NCBI GenBank assembly: GCA_964006375.1 | Contig: OZ023267.1 | Location: 22,255,739-22,319,738 of the forward strand | Length of the DNA stretch: 64,000 bases | Origin: Tillus elongatus | Lineage: Eukaryota > Arthropoda > Insecta > Coleoptera > Cleridae | Reading direction: 5' to 3' | Shown: piece by piece, positions 9,364 through 63,143 of the stretch | Layout of the letters: every line of letters begins with the position of its first letter | Position numbering within the stretch: position 1 is the stretch's first letter | The notes under the pieces: model-generated | What the model was told of the DNA's origin: nothing | Database searches by the model: none | What the model saw: the letters and a program-made list of their open reading frames with translations, nothing else | Position numbers and translations under genes: made by a program

Positions 9364-10540
9364 AGAGTTTTTACCATGACAATGTTATTTTAATGATATT
9401 TGGTTGAAATTAAATCAACCGAAGTACGTGTCAATGGAAAAGTTAGCTATGGGTATTTGAAAGAGGAAAAATGAGGAAGAATGATACGCGTATTGGTTTT
9501 TCTGAAAAGGGCGACCCTTAGGATTTTATCTAGCAAAAAAACTGTCGTTTATCCTTTATAGTGTATTAAGCCGAATGGATGTGAGGCCAATTAGCCTGTA
9601 CAATTTGGATGCCGTGTCCACTTTCTCTGATTTACAATTTACAAATATAGACGCAGTTAACCTGTTACTAGGTTTTTGAGACATCACCTCACGCCAAGCT
9701 GGCCTGCAATACATCTCTTATGTAAGGAAGCAATAGTTACAGGCCGTTCTTGAGCCATGCTGGAAAAATCACATCATCGCCCACGGACTTGAATATGGAA
9801 ACTCGTTCACCGCCCACTGGTATACAGAACTGAGAGAGATCAATGGACCTTTGAGGAAATCGAAAGGGAATTGGATCAAAACTACCAAGGAGACCTTGTA
9901 CCATCTCGATAAGGTTCACCTTGCTGGCCGTGAACCTAGGCGAGGTCGCTCAAGGTCTGATCGATAGTATTGATCCAATTTTCGTTTATTTATTTTTTGA
10001 TTGAGATTTTATTGATCTTTTTGAGTCCTGTATGAGTACCCTAACCGGTTTTGCCACGCCCAGTAGCTTAATTCTTTCACAGTATAGTTTAAGGCCCTTC
10101 TGGTCTGCTTGCGTAGAATGTCAAGATTCCAACTTCACCAGCAAACCTTGATGACCGGCTTTGATGTAATAATGACTGATGTTGTTGAACTGAAACCATA
10201 TAAAAAACAAAAGAAAGAGGTAATTTTTTTTATTCCATAAATTATTTGGAATGTCCGTTCCGATGATCTGGGATGCTATTAAGATTAAGAAATTATTTGG
10301 ACAGCTGTTAACTAAACTTTATTTCTTTGTGGAGGTGTACGACGGACAGAGGTGATCGCGTTTTGTTGAAAACCTATAGACGTTTTGCATTACGACATGA
10401 GTATTGCCATCGATTTAAAAAACAAATTGAAAATTAGAAGGTGGTTACCTTCCATTTATAAAATTTTCTTCACAAAAATCCGCAAAAATAGTATATCTTC
10501 TTAAAAATTAATTAACTAAATTATAATGCATATCAGTGAG
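9364..10540. other. Unassigned stretch with small open frames
   Basis: 9590-9960 is less AT-rich than its surroundings and open over about 75 codons on the plus strand and 60 on the minus. Neither translation is one I recognise. It may be a decayed coding fragment. The rest is AT-rich and featureless. Confidence 0.35.
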
Positions 10541-10568
10541 ACTAGATGCATTCTCGCAACAATTAGAA

Positions 10569-10609
10569 CCGTAGACCGGTTACGCTCTCATTAGAGCTCT
10601 TCAGTACGG
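10569..10609 (-). ncRNA. Hammerhead ribozyme, array unit 1 (core mutated)
   Basis: Minus strand: stem I CCGTA/TACGG, core CTGAAGA, stem II GCTCT-AATG-AGAGC, then GTAAC instead of the required GAAAC, stem III ACCGGT, cleavage triplet GTC. The A-to-U change in the GAAA element should abolish cleavage. Confidence 0.75.
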
Positions 10610-10875
10610 CATACTAATTGCAGCAAAAATGCACCAAAAATAACACGGCTATCGTATAGCCAGTCTTAAAACACTAAGTGAGTGGCGAACGTGTCGCCAC
10701 CTAGTTCGGAACCAAGTACTATGTTGTCACGCCCGCTCCAAATAACACAGAGTATTAAAAATAGAGACGGTATACAACTAACTAACAATTTAGTAAATTG
10801 TTAGCCCTGGCCCATTTCTACCCCAATATAGGGACAAAGTATGTAAGACTAGATGCATTCTCGCAACAATTAGAA

Positions 10876-10916
10876 CCGTAGACCGGTTTCGCTCTCATTA
10901 GAGCTCTTCAGTACGG
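10876..10916 (-). ncRNA. Type I hammerhead ribozyme, array unit 2 (intact)
   Basis: All conserved core elements are present on the minus strand: CTGAAGA (CUGANGA with N7 = A), GAAAC and the GUC cleavage triplet. Stem I is 5 bp (CCGTA/TACGG), followed by a GTAT/TT internal loop and an outer helix pairing GCAATTAG with CTAATTGT. Stem II is 5 perfect pairs with loop AATG. Stem III is the 6-nt palindrome ACCGGT, too short for a stable monomer hairpin, as in hammerheads that act as dimers. Predicted cut: after the C complementary to 10881. Confidence 0.85.
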
Positions 10917-11182
10917 CATACTAATTGCAGCAAAAATGCACCAAAAATAACACGTCTATCGTATAGCCAGTCTTAAAACACTAAGTGAGTGGCGAACGTG
11001 TCGCCACCTAGTTCGGAACCAAGTACTATGTTGTCACGCCCGCTCCAAATAACACAGAGTATTAAAAATAGAGACGGTATACAACTAACTAACAATTTAG
11101 TAAATTGTTAGCCCTGGCCCATTTCTACCCCAATATAGGGACAAAGTATGTAAGACTAGATGCATTCTCGCAACAATTAGAA

Positions 11183-11223
11183 CCGTAGACCGGTTTCGCT
11201 CTCATTAGAGCTCTTCAGTACGG
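11183..11223 (-). ncRNA. Type I hammerhead ribozyme, array unit 3 (intact)
   Basis: Core identical to unit 2: CTGAAGA, GAAAC, GTC, with the same stems. Units 2 and 3 in tandem would release an exact 307-nt RNA if cleaved. Confidence 0.85.
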
Positions 11224-11489
11224 CATACTAATTGCAGCAAAAATGCACCAAAAATAACACGGCTATCGTATAGCCAGTCTTAAAACACTAAGTGAGTGGC
11301 GAACGTGTCGCCACCTAGTTCGGAACCAAGTACTATGTTGTCACGCCCGCTCCAAATAACACAGAGTATTAAAAATAGAGACGGTATACAACTAACTAAC
11401 AATTTAGTATATTGTTAGCCCTGGCCCATTTCTACCCCAATATAGGGACAAAGTATGTAAGACTAGATGCATTCTCGCAACAATTAGAA

Positions 11490-11532
11490 CCGTAGACCGG
11501 TGTTTCGCTCTCATTAGAGCTCTTCAGTACGG
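11490..11532 (-). ncRNA. Hammerhead ribozyme, array unit 4 (2-nt insertion in stem III)
   Basis: Minus strand GAAACACCGGTC in place of GAAACCGGTC. The two extra bases enlarge stem III into 2 bp (AC/GT) with a 4-nt loop. All catalytic core bases remain, so activity as a monomer is possible. Confidence 0.75.
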
Positions 11533-11688
11533 CATACTAATTGCAGCAAAAATGCACCAAAAATAACACGGCTATCGTATAGCCAGTCTTAAAACACTAA
11601 GTGAGTGGCGAACGTGTCGCCACCTAGTTCGGAACCAAGTACTATGTTGTCACGCCCGCATATAACGGTTTACTTTCGCGGCGCGTGT

Positions 11689-14559: not shown

Positions 14560-16740
14560 CAGTTAGCGATTATTTGAAAAAAATATATTTTATACGGAGC
14601 TAAAAAAATTAAATTTGTTTTTAGATATAATATGTAAGTACTGCAAGTGTCTACAAAAATTGTGTTACAAATTTCATTAAAGGTACAAAAGAAAAAAATT
14701 ACTCATTTACAAAGGGAATGTACCTGTCAAATTATAAATAAAAATTCACTAATATGACAGGTATTTTTCCTTATTAATTGATCGGATGGTTTGTTTTAGT
14801 CTACCCATCCAGTGTTTGCAAACAATAAACAACAAAAATGGATTTTTAAAACAATTTTTTTATGCTCAAAGCTCAGTATGTTATTTTTCCCTCATTTAGT
14901 ACCCACGGTGCGTTTACATAGGTGTTACTATGGTTTAAGATTGAAGATTCTAGCTTAATGGAAAAATTATTTAGCTATCGGATTTAGAATATTTTTACGA
15001 AACTTTTCTACCATTACATACTTGCTGCACCCAGCCCCTATCCAATACTTATTTACGGTGGTTGTATCGAAACTTTTTGAAAATGATTTAATATTGCAGC
15101 TTACTATGTAAGACTGACAAACAAGGCAACCTCAAAATCATTTTTGGAAAAGAAAATTTAAAAAAAATTAAATGAGATAGCAATTTAAACATACATTGAA
15201 AATCTTGGTTCGCTGCTTCGTCGCGGGGGTGCTCCTTCCCCTTCTGCATGCATACAATCACCCTCAATGCATAAACAAGAACAATATAAACAATAAAAAT
15301 TCCTTTGGAGCAACCCCTAAGAAAGTTACAGGACCTGTGGTGAATATAGAGGTTCTGCGCGCGGTAACCAGGATTCTAAGGAGGTATAGCCACAGCATAA
15401 TATTGATTATGCTTTGGTATAGCTGCAAAATTGGATAAAAGCAGCTTAAAGAGGTACAACTAAGCTGTTTATTTCGCACATTCCGCTCACATTTCCTTTT
15501 TATATTCTTCGCCGCCCAGCACCCCTATTCACTTTTGATACCATAGCTTTCTTGTGGATAGTTTGCACGAAATTCTTCTTATGGTTTGGGCATCCAGAAG
15601 GGGTTCTAAGCCTAGTTCTGAAAAGGTTTTTCTAAACACCCTCCATGTGCTAATCTGCAAATTTACCGAAAATTTAATTTTTATTTTTTAAACGGAATGC
15701 ATCTATGAAATTATAGGTGGCAGGTAAGTATTTTTTATATTAATCGCTTGAATAATCGGTTTTAATCAACTCAATGGAACTAGTTTCTGCAAACAAAATA
15801 AGAAAAAAGCTTTCTAAGACAATTTTGTAATTATCTGTGAAGCTCATTGTGTTATTTTTAAAATTTAGTTCCACGCTGCTTGTATATAGGTTTTACTATG
15901 TATCGAAACTGAAGATTCTAGTTTGGTGGGAAATTGGGTTATCAACATTTGAAATATTTTTATGAAAATTCGCTACCATAACGCGCTTGACCTCTTTTCA
16001 ACACTTATTTACTATTGCTGTATTCATACTTTTGGAAAATTAAATAAATATAAACAATACAAAATTTTGAAAATTTTTTTTTTACAATTTAATCACAACA
16101 TCTGTTTATATAATTTTAACTAGGGATATATGTACTTTGTAATACCTACCTAGATATTATAAGTACTTACTGTATTAGTTTGAGGTAGGTATATTCCTTC
16201 TTAAAATAATTTGGTTCACTTTGGTTATACCTACCAGTGAATTATGTAAAGAGTTCACTAGGTAATACAAACAATATCTACAATCTACATGTAGTTTACC
16301 TATCACTTTCATATTTGTTTCATTAGATGTGACAATCATAATATACTTTTACAGTCATTTTGCTAAAGTTAAGTTAAAATTAACAGTTAGGTTATTATTT
16401 ACCTACTATTACCTAGTTGTTTTATACTATGAGGTCCTAATAAAGGTATTAGCAATTAGCATCAGCTGAGTCGATTTCGAGGTTATGCGATACGTAAATA
16501 GCCTACAAGCTTCTCTATGACAAATAGCTACGTGTGGTTAGATTAAACTAGGAGAGATGGAGAGAGATGGCTTTTAATTTTAAATACCGTGAACGTGAAG
16601 AATGGGAAGCTTAATATTTATACATAATGAAACGTCGTTCTAGATTGCTTTTAAACAAATCCAATAACTTTCGTTAGTTTTTTTTATTTATTAGTATACA
16701 ATTACACGCTAAAATTTAGCGCTTTGAACGCAAACTGTGT
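14560..16740 (+). repeat. Family L dispersed repeat, copy III
   Basis: Same order of blocks as the first copy plus an internal part missing there. 15190-15560 contains CTTCTGCATGCATACAA and GCACCCCTATTCACTTTTG, repeated inverted at 38520-38820. The open frames in that internal part are short and not conserved as protein. At 16535-16580 the sequence GGTTAGATTAAACTAGG corresponds to the hAT insertion point of copy I, unoccupied. Confidence 0.6.
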
Positions 16741-17189
16741 CCTAGTATTAGGAAAGAAATTGTCCAACGCTGACAATTTACAAAATTGGTAGTTGCTTGC
16801 ACATTTTACACAGCTCTATCTATAAACTTTTGTGTAAACTATATCTATCGTGACAACATACTCCCTCGTCCTGCACCGAGATGGCGTCCGTGTCGTATCT
16901 GTCGAAAAGATCTCCAGCCGCACATCTTGCAACAACTTCCATTGCTTAGATTGTTATCTACGATTCATTTAAATAGCATAGCAGTACAGATAACGTCATC
17001 TGTCTTTGTCCAGCATTTTAGATATTGCATTCCAGAATCTGAAGTGATGTCGAAAATAACTTTATTATAAATTTCGAATAGCTTTGTTCTCCTTTTATCA
17101 AACGACTTGCAAATTGGTATACAACCACGTCTGTCTTTATTCTTTTAAGTTGTATTTGTTTCAATCACTTAGAAGATTTGAGAGATATT
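16741..17189. other. Unassigned stretch
   Basis: No gene or repeat recognised; a 94-codon open frame (16786-17070) shows no family features. Confidence 0.4.
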
Positions 17190-21729: not shown

Positions 21730-22205
21730 TAAACTAAGTGAAGATTGGAACCTATGAGCACCGATAAGTACACTTGGAGAACCCAAATCACCACAACACA
21801 TTTTAAAAAAGACCTGACGCTAACCTAGTAAGCGTCATCAGAGGATGAAAAATTCTAACTACTTTTAAAACTAACATCACTTTATATACCGGATCTTAGG
21901 TAAAGAGACCGAACTGAGATAGGAAACTAATCGCAAGCAAATGCTGCAGTGTATTGTGTCTTTATCCCGGACAAGGTCTATGCACTGTCCCTACTAACTT
22001 ATCTAAAATATATCCATCTCTAATAATTTTGGAAAGGTTCAACGACAACTAAATTAACATAGTTTGCTTTGGCGGAACTATCTGTATTCTTATGTTACCT
22101 CTAGGACGTGTTGAAACGTGGGAATTTTATTTAACGAAACAATCGATCAAGTGACTCCTATCGACGGTGGTGACGTTCATACATTTTTTGTTGTAACTAT
22201 ATTTC

Positions 22206-22208
<3 letters not shown>

Positions 22209-22289
<81 letters not shown>
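22209..22289. repeat. (TA)n microsatellite
   Basis: TA run inside the Penelope-like 3' region, without family T flanks on either side. Confidence 0.97.
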
Positions 22290-22290
<1 letters not shown>

Positions 22291-22319
22291 TTTCAAAGGA
22301 GTTTAGCTGTCCTGGTTTT

Positions 22320-22575
22320 CTAACATTTTTTTATTAATTTCAGATTATCTTCAATAACGTGATGATTATTATCCCAAATATGTCGGCCGACGGCAGACCT
22401 ATCTATAGTACCGTAACGTAATTGGGCTAAGTGTTTTTTGAATCTAATTCGAATCAATCGTTTTGTTTGTCCGACGTACTTAAGATTACAATCTTTACAA
22501 CTTATTTCATAACTTTCCGACATTTTCTGCATGTTATCCTTGTCTTTTGGGTTACCTAGCAAGTTTTTTAAGTTT
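22320..22575 (-). pseudogene. Penelope-like GIY-YIG endonuclease domain fragment
   Basis: The open frame of about 85 residues carries SYEISCKDCNLKYVGQTKR, then RFKKHLAQLRYG and SAVGRHIWDNNHHVI. YEI...YVGQT with the paired Cys residues just before it is the GIY-YIG variant that ends Penelope-like retroelement proteins, where it makes the nick that primes target DNA. The terminal His-rich helix follows as expected. The upstream RT is missing and the first few residues come from the abutting family T sequence, so the apparent start codon is not a real start. Non-functional on its own. Confidence 0.82.
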
Positions 22576-22800
22576 TGAGTTTTCATTCGAAAAAAAATTT
22601 TAACTCAAAAAATAAAAATCTATGATAATTAAATTTGGTAGGTAGGTTTAACATATAAAAAGTAAACTATACAACAAAATTTAGATTTATATGTTACAAG
22701 ATAAAAAAGTTAAAATAAAAATTTTTGTGCCAGATCATTTCTATGAAAGTTCACTACCATAACACACTTGCTGCGTCCAGGCTTTTTAAATCACTCCACT
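22576..22800 (+). repeat. Family T right-end half
   Basis: AACTCAAAAAATAAAAATC, AAAAAGTAAACTATACAAC, then the end block CACTACCATAACACACTTGC at about 22749. It begins abruptly at the Penelope fragment, so it is truncated. Confidence 0.65.
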
Positions 22801-34539: not shown

Positions 34540-34542
<3 letters not shown>

Positions 34543-34575
34543 AGAAAGGTTTAAGGGCAAAGCCGCAAGGAGACA

Positions 34576-34620
34576 ACCGCAAACACGTGTTTCAGGCTAA
34601 TTAGCCATCATCAGTACGGT
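34576..34620 (-). ncRNA. Hammerhead ribozyme motif, left arm
   Basis: Minus strand: stem I ACCGTA/TGCGGT (6 pairs, one G-U), core CTGATGA, stem II GGCT-AATT-AGCC with a U-U at its base, GAAA, stem III from the palindrome CACGTG, then cleavage triplet GTT instead of the favoured GTC. All core bases are present; the triplet predicts weak cleavage. Confidence 0.65.
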
Positions 34621-34761
34621 ATAGCCAAGTGAAGATGGTAACACTCTGGATGAAGATGGAAAAATATACGGAGTCCCAACAGGCAACCAGTGCATAATTG
34701 CAGCAACATTTGGAAGACCCTCAATCCGAGGGAAACAACCAAAAAAGCTACACCTGGCTAT

Positions 34762-34806
34762 ACCGTACTGATGATGGCTAATTAGCCTGAAACACGTGTT
34801 TGAGGT
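34762..34806 (+). ncRNA. Hammerhead ribozyme motif, right arm
   Basis: Plus strand: ACCGTA, CTGATGA (34768-34774), stem II 34775-34788, GAAA (34789-34792), CACGTG, TT, then TGAGGT. Same as the left arm except one mismatch in stem I (G-A). Confidence 0.62.
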
Positions 34807-34881
34807 TGTCTCCTTGCGGCTTTGCCCTTTAACCTTTCTCCTTGTATAGTACATAAATGCCGTGTTATCAATCCTGTTTTA

Positions 34882-35145
<264 letters not shown>

Positions 35146-35596
35146 TGTCGTTTTTTACACAATCCAGATATTGCCAATTTGAAGTATTATACTTTGTTCA
35201 TTTCTTTTGCCTCGTCTTTCAACGGCAAACTGAGTAAAACACCGTAACTCAAGTTACGCTCACATATTTTGCAGTACATGCATAAATTAGAATACAAAAG
35301 AGGATTATACGCTAGCGCTAGAGCTACATAGGCTAACACACAAAAATTCAAATTTATACAGCCACTGTTCGGAGTACGTCGATAGCGCTGGAATTATTTT
35401 CAATTTGCATTTTATTCGAGGTAATTGTAGATTATTATTTTATAAGTATATATAACATTACAGTAGTGTTCGTTATGTTATGCGATATAATCATAAACGT
35501 ATATTATATACTATTAATCTTAGGCGGGTATTATTTTACACTTAAAAGCAACTTTACTCAACTAGCACTACCTGGGAATTATAATTTTTAGACACG
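35146..35596. other. Unassigned stretch
   Basis: No supported feature. Confidence 0.35.
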
Positions 35597-35930
35597 TGAG
35601 GCTAGATGCATTCTCAAAACAATTAGAACCGCTCTAATTAGAGCACGTCAGTACGGCATACTAATTGCAGCGAAAATACACTAATAAAGTAATACGGCTA
35701 TGGTAGCCAGCCTTCCAAAAGTGAGTGGTATGTTACTAAATTGTTAGTTGGTTGTTTACAGTCTCTAATTTTTAGCACTTTGTGTTATTTGGAGCTGCCG
35801 TAACATACTACTTGGTTCCGCAACGAGGTGGCAGCACGTGCTTCTTGTGTTATATCTCACTTAGTATTGGAAGGCTGGCTACCACAGCCGTATTACTTTA
35901 TAGGTGTATTTTCGCTGCAATTAGTATGCA
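35597..35930. repeat. Hammerhead-unit derivatives in inverted arrangement, ribozyme deleted
   Basis: 35597-35728 matches the 307-bp array unit in minus-ribozyme orientation: GGCTAGATGCATTCTC, AATTAGAACCG, then a deletion of about 13 bp that removes GAAAC, stem III and the cleavage site, then CTCTAATTAGAGC (stem II) and ACGTCAGTACGGC. 35730-35930 is the same unit in the other orientation, cut at GTATGC exactly where the ribozyme should begin. Neither can self-cleave. Confidence 0.7.
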
Positions 35931-36250
35931 GCGAGGTGGCGGTACGTGCTTCGTGTCTTAGGGCTCACGTTTTTTTAGGCACGTTAACCAACGTCAACTG
36001 CGAGAACCACAAGAGTAATATTATATACAATACGTCACTAAGTGGAGATTGGAGCATGTGATGAGCACTGGTAAGTACACGTTTCACTAACAAAGTTAGC
36101 GTCATCAGATGATGAAAAATTCTAACTACTTTTTACTAAACACCACATTTTATACTAAGTCTTAGTTAAAGAACGATACCGAGAGGGAGATAAAATCGCA
36201 GGAAAATTTTATGTGTGTTGTATTTTAATTGCCGGACGAGGTTTTTGAAC
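35930..36250 (+). repeat. Non-coding block shared with 37602-37800 and the Penelope relic
   Basis: 35930-36080 (GCAGCGAGGTGGCGGTACG, CACGTTAACCAACGTCAAC, ATGAGCACTGGTAAGTAC) is about 90% like 37602-37756. 36085-36250 (GTTAGCGTCATCAGATGATG, AAAAATTCTAACTACTTTT) matches 21830-21990 beside the GIY-YIG fragment. This links hammerhead-unit and Penelope-like sequences in one composite. Confidence 0.6.
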
Positions 36251-36354
36251 TTCCTTTATCACTTTACCGGACAGGTTTCAGATTGTTTATCTGCTTTAAA
36301 GACAGAGCACAAAGAGTGGACTGCAAACTAGTGGCGGCGCTCGATTAACGGAAG

Positions 36355-37336
36355 TTTTTTTTTCAGGGCTTGTCCGCGGCCTTGCCGCCCCGATAGCACT
36401 GCAACCTTTGACTGATTGTGCATTGTGCATACCCTTGGTCTTACTCCAGCCATTCCAAAATCACTGTGCCTTGAACTAGTCTGCACGGCGATTGGCAGGG
36501 TGAAGTTTTATATTGCTCTGTCTCCGGTCTAGACTGACCGTAGATCAGTGGTCTTTTGCAGTCCAGAGCTTTACACTCGCAAAAAATGTGCTGGGCTGAT
36601 TCCTCCCACTCGCTGCCGAGTCTGCATGCGAGGTCCCCTTCGAACCGCCCCATTTTATGCAGGTGTTTCTTGACGGCCATGTGTCCCGTCAAGAGACCTG
36701 TTATGTTTCTGAGCTGTCCTCTGCTAAGATTTAGCAGCTCCACAGCTCTCTTCGAACTGGGTTCGTCAATTATTAACTTCCCATGTCTGAGCCCTGGACA
36801 GTCTGCCGAGTACACCTTGTGTTGGTTTCAGACCCAGGACTTAATGGCTCCCCTGGCAGTGCTCTTTGTCACGCCCAGAGCCGGTTCTGGTCCCATAAAT
36901 GGTTCTGCTGACCGTATCTTCGCGAGACTGTCAGATTCTTCATTGCCTTTGACCCCCGAGTGACCCTGCACCCAGATGAGGGTCACCTAATTCTGCCCAG
37001 CCAGGTTTCTCGTCTCGTCTCCGCACTCACTTACCAGCCAGGAACTTACCCGTGGGCTACTTAGTGTCTTAAGAGCTGACTGGCTGTCTGTAGCTATGAG
37101 GATCCGCTTGTTGGTGTAGCCCCTCCTCTTGTTCTCCCGCACACAGTTGAGGATGGCGTACATTTCGGCCTGAAACACCGTTGCATGGGCCCCGAGGAAA
37201 ATACTATGAATTACCCTCGGTCCTTCCGAGTAAACACCTGCCCCCGTCTCATGCTCCCCGCCGGATCCGTCCGTGAACCAGACGAGCGCGTCCTGTGGTA
37301 TGCCCGGCGTCTCCTCTCTCCATGTCTCGCGGTCGG
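36355..37336 (-). pseudogene. RNase H-bearing LINE, 3' part (R1/I-like), two stop codons
   Basis: A single frame from about 37330 to 36441 reads VWFTDGSGGEHETGAGVYS (first RNase H Asp), FQAEMYAILNCV (Glu), IATDSQSAL (second Asp), then VTLIWVQGHSGVKGNEESD (His and final Asp region). It goes on to LLNLSRGQLRNITGLLTGH and a Cys-rich tail (CECKALDCKR) typical of R1/I/LOA-group elements. Internal stops: TAG at 36987-36989 and a TGA just before the VYSADCPG segment (about 36822). A 77-bp 3' UTR ends in A9 (T9 at 36355-36363 on the plus strand). 5'-truncated at a hammerhead-unit sequence. GC-rich compared with its surroundings. Confidence 0.85.
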
Positions 37337-37756
37337 CTGGCTACCATAGCCGTATTACTTTATAGGTGTATTTTCACTGTAATTAGTATGCCGTACTGAT
37401 GAGCTCTAATTAAAACGAAACCGGTCTACGGTTCTAATTGTGGTGAGAATGCATCTAGCCTTTCATACTTTGTCCCTATATTAGGGTAGAAATGGGCCAG
37501 GGCTGGCAATTTACTAAATTGTTAGTTGGTTGTATACAGTCTCTATTTTTAACACTCTGTGCTATTTGGCTCTGCCGTGACAACATACTACTTGGTTCCG
37601 CAGCGAGGTGGCGGCACGTGCTTCGTGTCTTACATCTCGCGTCTTTTTGGGCACGTTAACCAACGTCAACTGCGAGAACCACAAGAGTAATATTACATAC
37701 AATACGTCACTAAGTGAAGCTTGGAGCCTGTGATGAGCACTGGTAAGTACACTTGG
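37337..37756 (+). repeat. Solo hammerhead unit plus flanking block
   Basis: 37340-37620 corresponds to one whole 307-bp unit (inverse of the array orientation): GGCTACCATAGCCGTATTAC, ribozyme, GAGAATGCATCTAGCC, CTTTGTCCCTATATTAGGG, AAATTGTTAGTTGG, CAACATACTACTTGG. It then runs into the CAACGTCAACTGCGAGAACC block. Divergence from the array units is clearly greater than among the array units. Confidence 0.75.
37391..37431 (+). ncRNA. Type I hammerhead ribozyme, solo copy (weakened stem II)
   Basis: CCGTA, CTGATGA (37396-37402), stem II 37403-37416, GAAA (37417-37420), ACCGGT, C at 37426 as cleavage base, TACGG. Core and GTC triplet are intact and use the most common U at N7. Stem II has two C-A mismatches from G-to-A changes, so activity is doubtful. 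Outer stem AATTAGT/TCTAATT is retained. Confidence 0.75.
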
Positions 37757-39060
37757 AAAACCCAAATCGCCATAACACATCTTTTTAAAGACCTAACGAC
37801 AGATATATCAGGGTTGCGCTTCTATTGCAACAACAATCAATGAACGTTCCAAATCAAACTTTAAACAAACAGGCTACAAAAATACGTCACAATAAACAAT
37901 CAGCAGGGTTGCCATTTGCCAAAACAATCATCTGAATCTGAAGATATCAGAAAAATATATAGTAATAAATAAAAATTTTAATTAAAGTGATTCAATTTTT
38001 TAGAGGCAAACTATATTTTATCATGTATAAATATTAATCTTTCCATTATGCACGGTATTTTAAAGCCATCTCCCTTTACTAGTTTAATCTGACAACACCA
38101 GTTAGCTATTTGTTATTTGTTATTTTGCCAACTGACAGCAGGGGCGGAGTCGAATTCGATGTTACCCCCTCTTCTTCTTCTTAGAAGCAGCGTGGGTACT
38201 AAATTTAAAAAATAACACAATGAGCTTCACAGGCAACGACAAATTTGTTTTGGAAAACCATTTCTGTTATTTTGTTTGCAGAAACTGGTTAGATTAAGTT
38301 GACTAAAACGGATCATCCAAGCGACTATCAAGGAAAAATACCTGCCACGCTTATAGTTTGGCAGGTACATGCCTTTTGTAAATAAAAATTTAAGTTTCGG
38401 TAAATTTGCAGATTAGAACAGGGTGGCTTTCTAGAAAAAATAGTTGAGAAACATGCTTAAAACTCCTCTTGGATGCACAAACCACAAGAAATATTTCTTG
38501 CAAACAGGCTCCAAGAAAGTTACGGGAAAAAAGTGAATAGGGGTGTTGGGCGCGGAAGAAGATAAAAGGATATGTGCGAAAAAAACAGGTTAGTAAGACC
38601 TTTATAACTGAATTTTTTTCATTTTGCAGCTATACATCCTTAAAATTCCGTGGATCCCGTCCAGAACCCCTATATTCACCGCAGGTCTCGTAACCTTCTT
38701 GCGGGTTGTTCCTAAGAAACTTTTCTTGTTTACATTGTTCTTGTTTATGCATTGGGGGTGGTTGTAGGCATGCAGAAGCGGAAGGAGAACCACTAAGACA
38801 AAGCAGCGAAGCAAGATTTCTAATTAATATTTAAATTGTTGCCCCATTTCATTTGTTTAAAATATTTTTTCAAAAATGAAATTTAGGTTGTCTGCAGTCA
38901 GTCTTACATAGAGAGCTACAATATTCCATCATTTCTAAAAAGTGCGGATACAGCAACAGCAAATAAATGTTGAAAAGGTGCAGCAAATACATTATGGTAG
39001 AGAGTTTTTGTAAAAATATTTAAAATCCGATAACTCAATTTCCTATTTAGCTATGCAGAG
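37757..39060 (-). repeat. Family L dispersed repeat, copy II
   Basis: Inverse of copies I and III: GATATATCAGGGTTGCGC (37803), GAATTCGAT and CTTCTTCTTCTTAG (38152-38183), GCATGCAGAAGCGG (38767), and end GTGCAGCAAATACATTATGG (38980). At about 38080-38100 it shows CTAGTTTAATCTGAC, the unoccupied equivalent of the hAT insertion site in copy I. Open frames at 38602-38814 are not conserved as protein. Confidence 0.6.
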
Positions 39061-60464: not shown

Positions 60465-63143
60465 TTAGCGGGTAAGTATAAGCTTTGGACGCTTATGCTT
60501 GTGTGGAAGTTGCTCGTCGTAGTCGGTGGCACTACGGAGAAGAGCATTTGGGTGAGAAGCGGCTTTTGCGAACTGGGTTGTGGATAGTTGAGTTATAAAC
60601 TCAAGTATCGAAGGCATTTCCAGATCAGAGTGAATCTGACTGTTTCGGACAAACCATGGCGCTCCGGTTACCATTCTCAGAATTTTGTTCTGGATGATTT
60701 GAAGGCTCTTGATATGTGTTGCGGCCGCGGTGGCCCATGCGGGTGATGCATAGGTCAAGGCTGGCCGGATAATGACTTTGTAGATGATCAACTTATTGTT
60801 CATGGACAATTTTGAATTTCTATTTAGAAGTGGGAACAGCTTCGAGATGAACATCGAGGCTTTCTTTCGAGCGTGATCGACATGGGGGCGCCATGTTAAG
60901 TGTTTGTCGAGGAAAACCCCGAGGTATTTGGCGAAATCTTGCCAGGGGATTGGACGGTTGTCGAATGAAACGTGTTCGTGAGGTGTGTGTCTCCTCTTGG
61001 AAAATAGGACAGCTGAACATTTATCGGGGTTTATGGCTAGAAGAGATTTCCTATACCATGATTGCAGCTCGACTACGGCGGTCTGAAGTCGTTCGGTTAT
61101 TATCCTCGGCTGAGTGGAGCTGCTGAGGATGGTAGTGTCGTCTGCGTACAGTGCGTATGTCACGTTTAGGGGGGCTGTCGGAATATCTGCGACAAATATA
61201 TTGTACAGCAGAGGGGAGATAGCAGAACCCTGCGAGAGACCAGCCGTGGCTGGGTACGTTCTAGATCTGGCTCCAAGGTGTTTGACCTGGTACTTCCTCT
61301 GTTGCAGGTATGACCTGATTAGCAGAATCAGAGGGAGAGGATAATTAAATGATAGAAGTTTGTTTAGGAGGCCCGCATGCCAAACCCTATCGAAAGCTTG
61401 AGCAATGTCAAGGAATATTGCACCAGTTGACTTGTTTATGTTAAATCCTTTGGTGATGTTTTCCACCACACGAAGGACTTGGTCAGTGGTGGAGTGCTGG
61501 TGTCTGAAGCCGAATTGCTCATCCGGGAGGATATGATTTTCTGAGGTGAAAGAAGCTAGCCTTTTCTGAATCAGTTTTTCGGCGATTTTACCGATGACTG
61601 GTAGCAGGCTAATGGGCCTGTAGTTTTGAGGGAACAGCGGATCTTTGTTGGGTTTCGGGATGTTGATAATGTCGGCAAGTTTCCACATGGAAGGAAAATG
61701 TTGAAATCGCAACATGGCATTCATAATCGTAACTATGAATACCACGGCTTTGCGGGGGAGGTTTTTCAGGGCTACGTTGGAGATTCCATCGTATCCCGGA
61801 GCTTTCCTATTTTTTAATGCTTTGATTATTTGGGAAACTTCTTCGAAAGTTGTGGGCTCGATAGTTGTGTCTGGGGTGGCGCGAAGCGCACTCCTGACAT
61901 AGCGGTGCGTTCTTGCTACGTGCGACAGATCAACGTTGTCATAATTCGGGCTGAATTGCAACTCCAGATGATCTGCGAATGCAGTAGTTTTCTCTGCATC
62001 CGTGTATACCACACCATTACGGCCGTGAAGCGGGGATATCGGAAGTTTTTGGGAGCGTAGGGCTTTCGCCATTTGCCAGACGGAATTGTCTTGGGTAGAC
62101 AGGGTTTGCAGGCGCTCCTCCCAACAATTGTTGCGGAGTTCTTGTAGGGCGGATCGTACTTGTTTGATGAGTCTGTTAGCGTCTCGTTTGTCGGTGGGGT
62201 TTCCGGTGCGTTGAGCCAGTCTACGCACGCGGTTCTTTTCGAGTATCATTTCCCTGATACTGGACGGAAAAGGTGGCAGATTGCTCTGGGCGGGGTACGT
62301 CCTTGATGCATGTTCGATAGAGCATTGAATTTTGGACTGTAGATTATCCACGGCACCCTCGAGTTCGGGGATGCCGCGGATAACCGGAATATTGCCAAGG
62401 GTGTTTTTAAGCTGATCTGTGAAGACTGGCCACAGTACCTTTTTCCTTGGGAGGGCGGGTTCGTCGCTGACGTCGCCGAGCTGCAATATGACTGGGTTAT
62501 GGTCCGACGAGAGGTCGTTTTGGGTTGTTATTTCATGGAGAAGGGTGGTGTTCGACATGATAACTATGTCAAGCACGTCGGGTCGACCTGCACTGCCGAA
62601 GTGTGTAGGTATTTGGGGAGCGTCAACCGTGCAATTTGCACGGCTGTCGACGTAGGCTTGGAGGAATCTCCCATTTGTGTTGGCATTGCGAGAATGCCAA
62701 TTGGGATGTTTGGAATTTAAATCGCCAGCAATTATTATGGGTTGGTTGGTATCGAATAAGAGGTCTAGGTCGGCGTCTAGAATTCTCTTTTGTGGCGGAT
62801 TATATGCAGAAATGAGCTTAATTGGGCCTGCAGAGAAAGTGTTTACTACGACTTGCGTAGCCTCGATGTTTTGCAGGGCTGGCGTGCTGAAAGGGTGGTG
62901 GTCAATATTTGTCTTTACATACACTGCCGTGCCGCCACCTCTGGAAGTGGTGCGGTCATTGCGGTACAGTGTATAGTTAGGGAGTTTCGGATTGGTTGGA
63001 AGACGCATTTTGGTTTCCTGGACTAGAATAACGTCCAGTTTTAATCGTTGGGCGAATTCTTGGAGCTCATTTCTTTTGCAGGCTAGGCCGTTTGCATTCC
63101 ATGATGCAACCTGCAGGGATTGTGGCTTTCTTCGAGAAATCAT
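60465..63143 (-). CDS. Jockey-type ORF2: AP-like endonuclease and reverse transcriptase
   Basis: 892 residues, uninterrupted. Residues about 10-225 form an exonuclease-endonuclease-phosphatase endonuclease: SWNANGL (14-20), QETK (42-45), GDLNSKH (140-146), DVLDIV (189-194) and SSDHNPV (212-218), so the catalytic Glu, Asp-x-Asn and SDH are all present. RT spans about 445-720: KAPGYDGI (447-454), NYRPISLL (507-514), FLDIAQAFDRVWH (577-589), LSQGSAISPLLYN (636-648), YADDT (666-670) and KYLG (739-742). It nicks target DNA and reverse-transcribes the element RNA. No RNase H, as in the Jockey clade. Start: the ATG directly follows the ORF1 stop. It looks functional. Confidence 0.95.
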   Translation of the reverse strand: MISRRKPQSLQVASWNANGLACKRNELQEFAQRLKLDVILVQETKMRLPTNPKLPNYTLYRNDRTTSRGGGTAVYVKTNIDHHPFSTPALQNIEATQVVVNTFSAGPIKLISAYNPPQKRILDADLDLLFDTNQPIIIAGDLNSKHPNWHSRNANTNGRFLQAYVDSRANCTVDAPQIPTHFGSAGRPDVLDIVIMSNTTLLHEITTQNDLSSDHNPVILQLGDVSDEPALPRKKVLWPVFTDQLKNTLGNIPVIRGIPELEGAVDNLQSKIQCSIEHASRTYPAQSNLPPFPSSIREMILEKNRVRRLAQRTGNPTDKRDANRLIKQVRSALQELRNNCWEERLQTLSTQDNSVWQMAKALRSQKLPISPLHGRNGVVYTDAEKTTAFADHLELQFSPNYDNVDLSHVARTHRYVRSALRATPDTTIEPTTFEEVSQIIKALKNRKAPGYDGISNVALKNLPRKAVVFIVTIMNAMLRFQHFPSMWKLADIINIPKPNKDPLFPQNYRPISLLPVIGKIAEKLIQKRLASFTSENHILPDEQFGFRHQHSTTDQVLRVVENITKGFNINKSTGAIFLDIAQAFDRVWHAGLLNKLLSFNYPLPLILLIRSYLQQRKYQVKHLGARSRTYPATAGLSQGSAISPLLYNIFVADIPTAPLNVTYALYADDTTILSSSTQPRIITERLQTAVVELQSWYRKSLLAINPDKCSAVLFSKRRHTPHEHVSFDNRPIPWQDFAKYLGVFLDKHLTWRPHVDHARKKASMFISKLFPLLNRNSKLSMNNKLIIYKVIIRPALTYASPAWATAAATHIKSLQIIQNKILRMVTGAPWFVRNSQIHSDLEMPSILEFITQLSTTQFAKAASHPNALLRSATDYDEQLPHKHKRPKLILTR

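Follow-up and report, generated by a model that had tools for sequence, protein, structure and literature searches.

Insertion scars of a hammerhead retrozyme in the beetle Tillus elongatus suggest that it spreads with Penelope-type copying machinery

Tandem repeats that carry a hammerhead motif in each unit may be satellites with a fossil ribozyme or mobile elements, and in the latter case the question is which machinery copies them. Such an array is present in the stretch of 64,000 nucleotides of the Tillus elongatus genome that was analysed here and is called the window. It occupies 10536-11659 on the minus strand and consists of 3.65 tandem units of 307 bp. Tandem Repeats Finder reported a period of 307, 3.6 copies and 99% matches at 10539-11659, and repeat finding bore out the four phased units starting at 10541, 10848, 11155 and 11462 that an earlier note on this DNA had described. 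The sense unit is numbered S1-S307, counted from the ribozyme cut. The array has the following features.

10536..11659, minus strand: retrozyme insertion with a single arm; its sense 3' end (site A, S38) is at 10536 and its other end (S145) at 11659
10568..10610, minus strand: hammerhead of unit 1, core broken (GUAA)
10875..10917, minus strand: hammerhead of unit 2, intact core, predicted cut between 10881 and 10880
11182..11224, minus strand: hammerhead of unit 3, intact core, predicted cut between 11188 and 11187
11489..11533, minus strand: hammerhead of unit 4, intact core, stem III lengthened by a 2-nt insertion
10672..10681, minus strand: the word TCACTTAGTG at start site B; further copies in the array begin at 10979, 11286 and 11595
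10528..10533 (left copy) and 11658-11663 (right copy), no strand: candidate target duplication GCATAT, alone not significant

When the minus strand is read, CCGTA-CTGAAGA-stem II and CGGTC-TACGG are present in all units. Stem I is formed by GCCGUA and UACGGU and is followed by an internal loop and an outer helix. CUGAAGA is followed by stem II (five pairs without a mismatch), by GAAA, by the palindromic ACCGGU and by GUC at the cut. When the units were compared with the definition of a type I hammerhead (CUGANGA, stem II, GAAA, NUH and the order of stems I and III), units 2-4 agreed in all points, whereas unit 1 has GUAA in place of GAAA. The earlier statement that each unit encodes a hammerhead is therefore right for the motif but not for the core of unit 1, and the complete core that had been ascribed to units 2 and 3 is also found in unit 4. 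The cuts predicted opposite 10881 and 11188 were correctly placed. In unit 4, the 2-nt insertion converts stem III from ACCGGU, with one pair and a palindromic CCGG loop, to ACACCGGU, with two pairs and a tetraloop. This unit (11462-11659) has the only monomer-type stem III of the array and stands beside dimer-type neighbours, which makes a natural test pair for the function of stem III.

A descriptor scan of the window returned four complete type I hammerheads, three in units 2, 3 and 4 of the array and a fourth, at 34576-34620, that belongs to a second family. The same scan gave a single match in total in 60 simulated 64-kb sequences. The covariance-model search that the earlier note had proposed matched Rfam Hammerhead_HH9 to all four array units with 30.4, 30.4, 27.1 and 25.6 bits, the best match reaching E values of 4.2e-5 (search of 2 kb) and 0.0014 (search of the whole window), but all four remained under the gathering score of 52 and the search at the gathering threshold gave no match. 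The array has a GC content of 0.41-0.42. No stop-to-stop frame of at least 75 amino acids overlaps it in a frame list without IY-rich frames, in line with the absence of an ORF noted before.

The array thus has what is expected of an animal retrozyme: a type I hammerhead in tandem units within 150-450 bp, a GC content below 50%, no coding capacity and, in predicted folds, a highly self-paired RNA. Target duplications of more than 4 bp are found at the dispersed insertions described below; the window copy has only 6 exact bp (GCATAT), or 7 of 8 if one mismatch is allowed, too little to prove anything by itself. The array is best explained as a single insertion of an animal (non-LTR) retrozyme, a mobile element of 307 nt that does not code for protein and has a type I hammerhead.

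The dispersal of the element was analysed in the 1.72-Gb assembly of 30 contigs that contains the window. The ribozyme end GAAACCGGTCTACGGTTCTAATTG with at most two mismatches matched 14,199 + 14,302 = 28,501 times, and the reversed control pattern did not match at all. Without dispersed copies, the earlier note would have read the array as a plain satellite; these matches in the same genome answer that point. The first 100 places listed fell into 54 clusters, 15 of them with both strands. Among these 100 places, neighbours on opposite strands within 1 kb were head-to-head in 15 cases and tail-to-tail in none, and 28 of the 31 spacings on the same strand measured 305-308. Pattern scans of viral contigs and prokaryote genomes and a blastn search of plasmids gave no retrozyme match, as expected for an animal repeat.

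We analysed 36 insertions, 19 chosen by similarity and 17 taken in order along contig C1. The similarity-chosen set comprises the window array and the loci L009-L025, with L012 counted twice. The second set comes from the first 18 clusters along C1, which 30 loci cover; the eighteenth (L073-L075) was dropped because its array extends past the loci. Old fragments in L012 (1969-2100) and L019 (1524-1659) and the older copies in the window were also dropped before counting, as was a 10-bp duplication of L012a that lies inside the element. The B end of L048 was read by eye from the left flank. Two parts of L066 that are 197 bp apart were counted as one insertion, which its 13-bp duplication bears out.

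Two head-to-head arms were present in 25 of the 36 insertions (15 of 19 in the similarity-chosen set and 10 of 17 on C1), and the window array is one-armed. The outer ends are sense 3' ends that fall at two fixed positions of the RNA, A and B. Site A lies about 37 nt past the ribozyme cut (...GTCTTA/C); the matches end at S35-47 and, where a duplication fixes the border, at S35-40 (S45 in L014). Site B lies near nucleotide 207 (...CACTTAG/TG), with matches ending at S204-220. The word CTTA occurs exactly twice in the retrozyme unit, once at A and once at B. One A end combined with one B end was observed in 20 of the 36 insertions. Eleven of these belong to the similarity-chosen 19 (L009, L010, L011, the second insertion of L012, L013, L014, L016, L020, L022, L023 and L024) and nine to the 17 on C1 (L047, L048 by eye, L053, L057, L060, L066, L068, L069 and L071). 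Only one of the two sites was found in 12 insertions (7/19 and 5/17) and neither in four (1/19 and 3/17), whereas the combinations A+A and B+B did not occur in any of the 36.

Exact target duplications of at least 9 bp flanked 17 of the 35 insertions tested and were not seen in the other 18, so that the genome search for arrays with target duplications suggested by the earlier note was successful and its retrozyme reading is supported. In the similarity-chosen set, duplications of 9-13 bp were found in 11 of 18 tested insertions, L025 being left out of this count, and 306 cross-pairings of flanks gave none, the largest being 8 bp. The insertions of this set with at least 9 exact bp were located on five contigs (C1, C2, C4, C7 and C8). 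On C1, 6 of 17 insertions had duplications of 9-15 bp, of which some letters are possibly the element's own; here the control gave at least 9 bp in 3 of 272 cross-pairings, with 13 bp as the largest.

These data bear on two simple readings. The units stand head-to-tail, have a constant length and are 99% alike, as in an ordinary satellite that grows by unequal exchange and keeps the hammerhead as a fossil. This reading is already contradicted by the insertion data, since inverted arms with fixed ends and target duplications stand at unrelated places, and we consider it highly improbable. Inverted arms with flanking duplications also resemble the terminal inverted repeats of a DNA foldback or MITE-like transposon that is moved by a transposase. 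The outer ends A and B, however, differ in sequence, single-armed copies exist, and the arms range from tens of bases to 1.3 kb (4.2 laps in L017) and include whole extra laps. A transposase is therefore just as hard to credit, and both readings were dropped because of the duplications, the unequal ends and the multi-lap arms.

The arms also tell something about the template. In the similarity-chosen set, 15 of 16 A-arms crossed the ribozyme cut, which is 37 nt upstream of A, and the exception, in L012, passes it by one base. Since a cDNA would stop at this point on cut RNA, we infer that the template was uncut or re-closed. In L052 (1476-2134), a one-armed insertion with a 7-bp duplication, the far end lies a few bases past the ribozyme cut and is perhaps a run-off near the cleavage site.

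The sequence differences among the copies were compared next. Units within one arm differed by 1.21% on average (41 pairs), opposite arms of the same insertion by 2.05% (35 pairs) and insertions from each other by 5.33% (1441 pairs). In 7 of 13 two-armed insertions, both arms carry a variant that is absent from every other insertion examined. A single template does not fit all cases, however: the arms of L014 differ by 6.4-6.8%, and for only 11 of 39 segments was the opposite arm of the same insertion strictly the nearest sequence. The 36 nt of the ribozyme are the least variable part, with 3 changes in 612 insertion-site cells versus 160 in 4482 elsewhere. This about 7-fold lower variability between insertions also speaks against the satellite with a fossil hammerhead. 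Among 50 complete units of the similarity-chosen insertions, 42 have the exact core, stem II and GGTC, and 46 have the dimer-type ending AACCGGTC.

The RNA is predicted to be highly structured. As circles, the three full window units in sense orientation folded with -104 to -108 kcal/mol and z values of -5.4 to -7.4 (40 shuffles each), whereas the antisense folds reached only -2.5 to -2.9, a difference between the strands that does not favour the satellite either. In the predicted circular fold of unit 2, 70% of the nucleotides are paired. When the structure of one window unit was applied to 13 units from 13 loci, 97.7% of the pairs were standard. Changes on both sides of a pair occurred in 16 cells, which none of 500 shuffles reached, and were spread over five pairs, which 6 of 500 reached; versions slid along the alignment gave 0 or 1. 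Further pair types in the 13-unit alignment were not above shuffles (264 of 500 reached the value). On alignment A2, three of the five covariation measures beat nearly all shuffles, an excess that relatedness alone can yield; the earlier, small alignment A1 lacked power, its value being reached by 193 of 500 shuffles. Sites A (S31-43) and B (S206-219) pair to a common stem in the predicted circular RNA, with a small internal loop at the start points. The pair C34-G216 has a probability of at least 0.65 in 15 of 16 insertion consensuses and of 0.27 in L023.

If the retrozyme is copied from RNA, an enzyme has to be provided in trans, as the earlier note had already assumed. This assumption has been strengthened to a named candidate, a Penelope-like element that has the same insertion plan and is represented in the window by a 3' fragment.

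21733..22604, minus strand: 3' part of a Penelope-like element, with a GIY-YIG fragment and, by eye, an end of type B' and a hammerhead remnant

The GIY-YIG fragment at 22323-22604 matched Pfam PF01541, and this endonuclease domain scored above the cut-off in the window fragment and in 6 of 6 pieces of the Penelope-like element. In the six pieces scanned, Pfam did not match a reverse transcriptase domain; YVDD was seen by eye in L027. With the GIY-YIG fragment as query, the genome yielded 36,830 first-look candidates, the best 150 of which were scored. Of 20 loci retrieved, 15 yielded readable 3' ends with a ribozyme, 20 ends in all. The ribozyme is a minimal type I hammerhead (CTGATGA-CGCTAACTTGGTTAGT-GAAACGATCGTC/AGG) downstream of the GIY-YIG region, with a palindromic stem III, ACGATCGT. 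Its pattern matched 11,524 times in the genome and the reversed control not once. Among the first 100 places listed, neighbours within 2.5 kb were head-to-head 15 times and tail-to-tail never.

The 20 readable 3' ends fell into two kinds: type A' with 11 ends (...AAGTGTACTTA/ or G) and, about 36 nt further along the element, type B' with 9 ends (...CAATCTTCACTTAG(TG)/). All four head-to-head loci (L027, L029, L033 and L040) combine one A' with one B'. L028 has two copies tail-to-tail, which we interpret as two insertions. Exact duplications reach 13 bp in L029 and L040; that of L027 covers 9 letters in a TA-rich stretch, and L033 sits in (TA)n and is uninformative. The retrozyme shares the features of a Penelope-type insertion, i.e. 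head-to-head arms, two distinct 3' ends with one on each side, and duplications of 9-13 and 9-15 bp in its two sets, where a size near 8-10 bp is expected for Penelope.

The B' end of the Penelope-like element carries the word TCACTTAGTG in L027, L040 and L044 and in the window at 37708. This is the B word of the retrozyme, in register. A run of at least 10 shared letters arises in 0.012% of random comparisons, the Penelope string used in this comparison having been assembled by eye. All ten letters are present in 3 of 9 B' ends, and the rest reach the flank earlier or differ (L028 and L042). At A, the retrozyme and the Penelope-like element have only CTTA in common, and runs of at least 4 letters occur in 12% of random comparisons. 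The fold of the Penelope-like end did not choose an A'-B' stem. Older retrozyme foldbacks lie within less than 3 kb of Penelope copies in L035 (2695-3256, oriented with GIY-YIG forward) and in L044 (1-938).

Dispersed, head-to-head, with two fixed ends, target duplications, a conserved ribozyme and a start word common to Penelope copies, the insertion scars suggest that the retrozyme has spread by borrowing the copying machinery of a Penelope retrotransposon. It is probable, judging from the insertion sequences, that uncut or re-closed retrozyme RNA is copied by double-ended target-primed reverse transcription.

The window also contains a candidate for a different mover, a LINE with an endonuclease and a reverse transcriptase at 60468-63143 and an upstream frame to 63926, all on the minus strand. 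The endonuclease-reverse transcriptase frame has 892 amino acids and the upstream frame resembles a zinc-knuckle gag; we take the element to be jockey-like. Such a LINE could mobilise the retrozyme by twin priming, and the likeness to Penelope would then be coincidental. Twin priming yields a head-to-head plan with duplications of about 9-13 bp, as observed here, and has one fixed and one scattered start. Both starts of the retrozyme, however, are fixed and differ from each other. Moreover, inspection of A and B ends in the similarity-chosen insertions gave no poly(A) tail, and the B word is in register with Penelope copies, which themselves follow the rule of one A' and one B'. We regard mobilisation by a LINE as improbable, although LINEs as well as Penelope elements have been proposed as movers of animal retrozymes (PMC7229834).

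On the Penelope reading, the steps would be as follows. The hammerhead would cleave transcripts of the minus strand, probably in dimeric form given the short stem III (ACCGGU), and the cut RNA would be closed into circles, as published for other animal retrozymes. Uncut or re-closed RNA would then be reverse transcribed by the Penelope-like machinery at a chromosomal break. At a staggered break, the 3' ends of both DNA strands would serve as primers, one at A and one at B, which pair with each other as a stem in the predicted circular RNA. Both cDNAs would be extended upstream along the RNA, often past one full lap, and would be linked head-to-head, so that a duplication of about 9-13 bp remains. 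The window copy would be a one-armed insertion primed at A. Cleavage of the RNA, its circularity, the enzyme and the mobilisation in trans are what we infer beyond the sequence data.

A stronger version of the Penelope reading is offered tentatively, as quite possible but short of probable. It states that one and the same circular ribozyme RNA serves both sides of the break at once: Penelope machinery would start one cDNA at A and another at B, on the two strands of one internal stem, each cDNA would travel around the circle, and the two would be joined head-to-head. Retrozymes would then live as parasites on Penelope elements by imitating the start signals of the latter. In SINE-LINE pairs, a non-coding element likewise bears the start signal of its autonomous partner; there it is one 3' tail, whereas the retrozyme has two start sites and would offer a circular or multimeric template.

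The circle has a competitor within the Penelope reading. The template could be an uncut, multimeric linear RNA transcribed from genomic arrays that never becomes a circle, and the ribozyme would be dispensable for insertion. Arms of several laps also fit multimers, and hammerhead mutants of the anole Penelope RNA were inserted in vitro without change (PMC11167929). The low variability of the ribozyme implies, on the other hand, that the ribozyme matters, and the difference of 1.21% within arms versus 5.33% between insertions is obtained most easily from one circle. We judge the linear template rather unlikely; as a special case of the Penelope reading, it shares part of the latter's likelihood.

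Older copies and a second family are also present in the window.

35596..35728, minus strand: older, diverged retrozyme arm with its A end at S38, ribozyme partly deleted
35733..35929, plus strand: older retrozyme arm, head-to-head with the arm at 35596..35728
37337..37619, plus strand: older retrozyme copy, 87% identical, with CTGATGA...GAAACCGGTCTACGG and a decayed stem II
34541..34882, no strand: foldback of a second, unrelated retrozyme family, with head-to-head arms in a TA microsatellite
34576-34620, minus strand, and about 34768-34792, plus strand (core only): hammerheads of the second family

With Rfam at E values up to 1 or 2, the older retrozyme copies and the second family were not found. 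The region 35596-37760 is a composite of older retrozyme arms and a fragment with an RNase H match (36990-37340, minus strand). It includes two copies, 93% alike, of one stretch (35928-36080 and 37600-37752), which seems to extend the Penelope 3' end beyond B' into retrozyme sequence. At 16731-16900, there is a strongly diverged relative (67%) of the retrozyme unit in which the ribozyme was not seen. The window also holds more than 20 TA/AT microsatellites, many of them flanked by a common repeat with CCCCTAGAACCCATATCCGGGG-like sequence.

The second family has the motif ACCGTA-CTGATGA-TGGCTAATTAGCCT-GAAACACGTGTT and a unit near 305 bp. The genome yielded 1,367 first-look candidates, 40 of which were scored. 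Tandem and foldback relatives are many, for example an array of eight units, the last one partial, at C3:97463205-97465434. Three of four loci have one end of each of two kinds, and in the fourth (L078) the second end was beyond reach. The ends are ...CTTTCTCCTT/ and ...CCTGTTTTAG/ with small differences, and the insertions lie in TA repeats. CTTA as a rule for all start sites was rejected, as the second family ends at other words. Because its start words differ from CTTA, this family may use another Penelope family as its mover.

How far do these observations go beyond known systems? According to PMC7229834 (Cervera and de la Pena 2020), animal non-LTR retrozymes have a type I hammerhead in tandem units of 170-400 bp, are low in GC, non-coding and dispersed, give a self-paired RNA and have, in salamanders, a similarly weak stem III; they are expressed as circles in coral, mussel and axolotl. 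The enzyme is merely proposed there, whereas the beetle element adds head-to-head insertions, two fixed ends and a start word common to Penelope copies. The hammerhead repeats of newt and axolotl, as far as this source covers them, also have a short palindromic stem III and are more active as dimers, but are amphibian and have units of 330-350 bp. According to a review (PMC7761336), most invertebrate hammerhead motifs can form a stable stem III, in contrast to the dimer-type ending that prevails here.

On the Penelope side, the accessible account of Adineta vaga (PMC3846280) describes endonuclease-containing Penelope elements that carry a pLTR in inverted, head-to-head position to the element and, optionally, a tail of 31 bp at one of the ends; several copies are flanked by duplications of 8-10 bp, others by none. 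This resembles the plan found here, although those elements are autonomous and protein-coding, and for the inverted form self-priming on an antisense template is discussed in that account, not double-ended priming of a ribozyme RNA. The purified protein of the anole Penelope element (Poseidon of Anolis, PAc) cleaves both DNA strands, extends them and initiates at two internal sites of the RNA that bound the genomic tail, and the element contains a hammerhead. This was observed in vitro with its own RNA, and a circular or non-autonomous template is absent from the sections of PMC11167929 consulted. Head-to-head retrozyme insertions or a start site shared with Penelope were not found in the literature searched, which consisted mostly of papers outside subscription and of main texts without supplements. 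What is new is the footprint of the insertions; it points to copying of the Penelope type, in which both ends of the target prime synthesis on uncut or circular RNA.

The mover of animal retrozymes and the circle as a template have been open so far, LINEs and Penelope elements being named as candidates in the accessible text of PMC7229834. With tens of thousands of copies in one genome, the footprints give the start sites, a partner element and the rule of one A and one B. If true, this would account for the retention of hammerheads in Penelope elements as well as in retrozymes and for the joint occurrence of the two.
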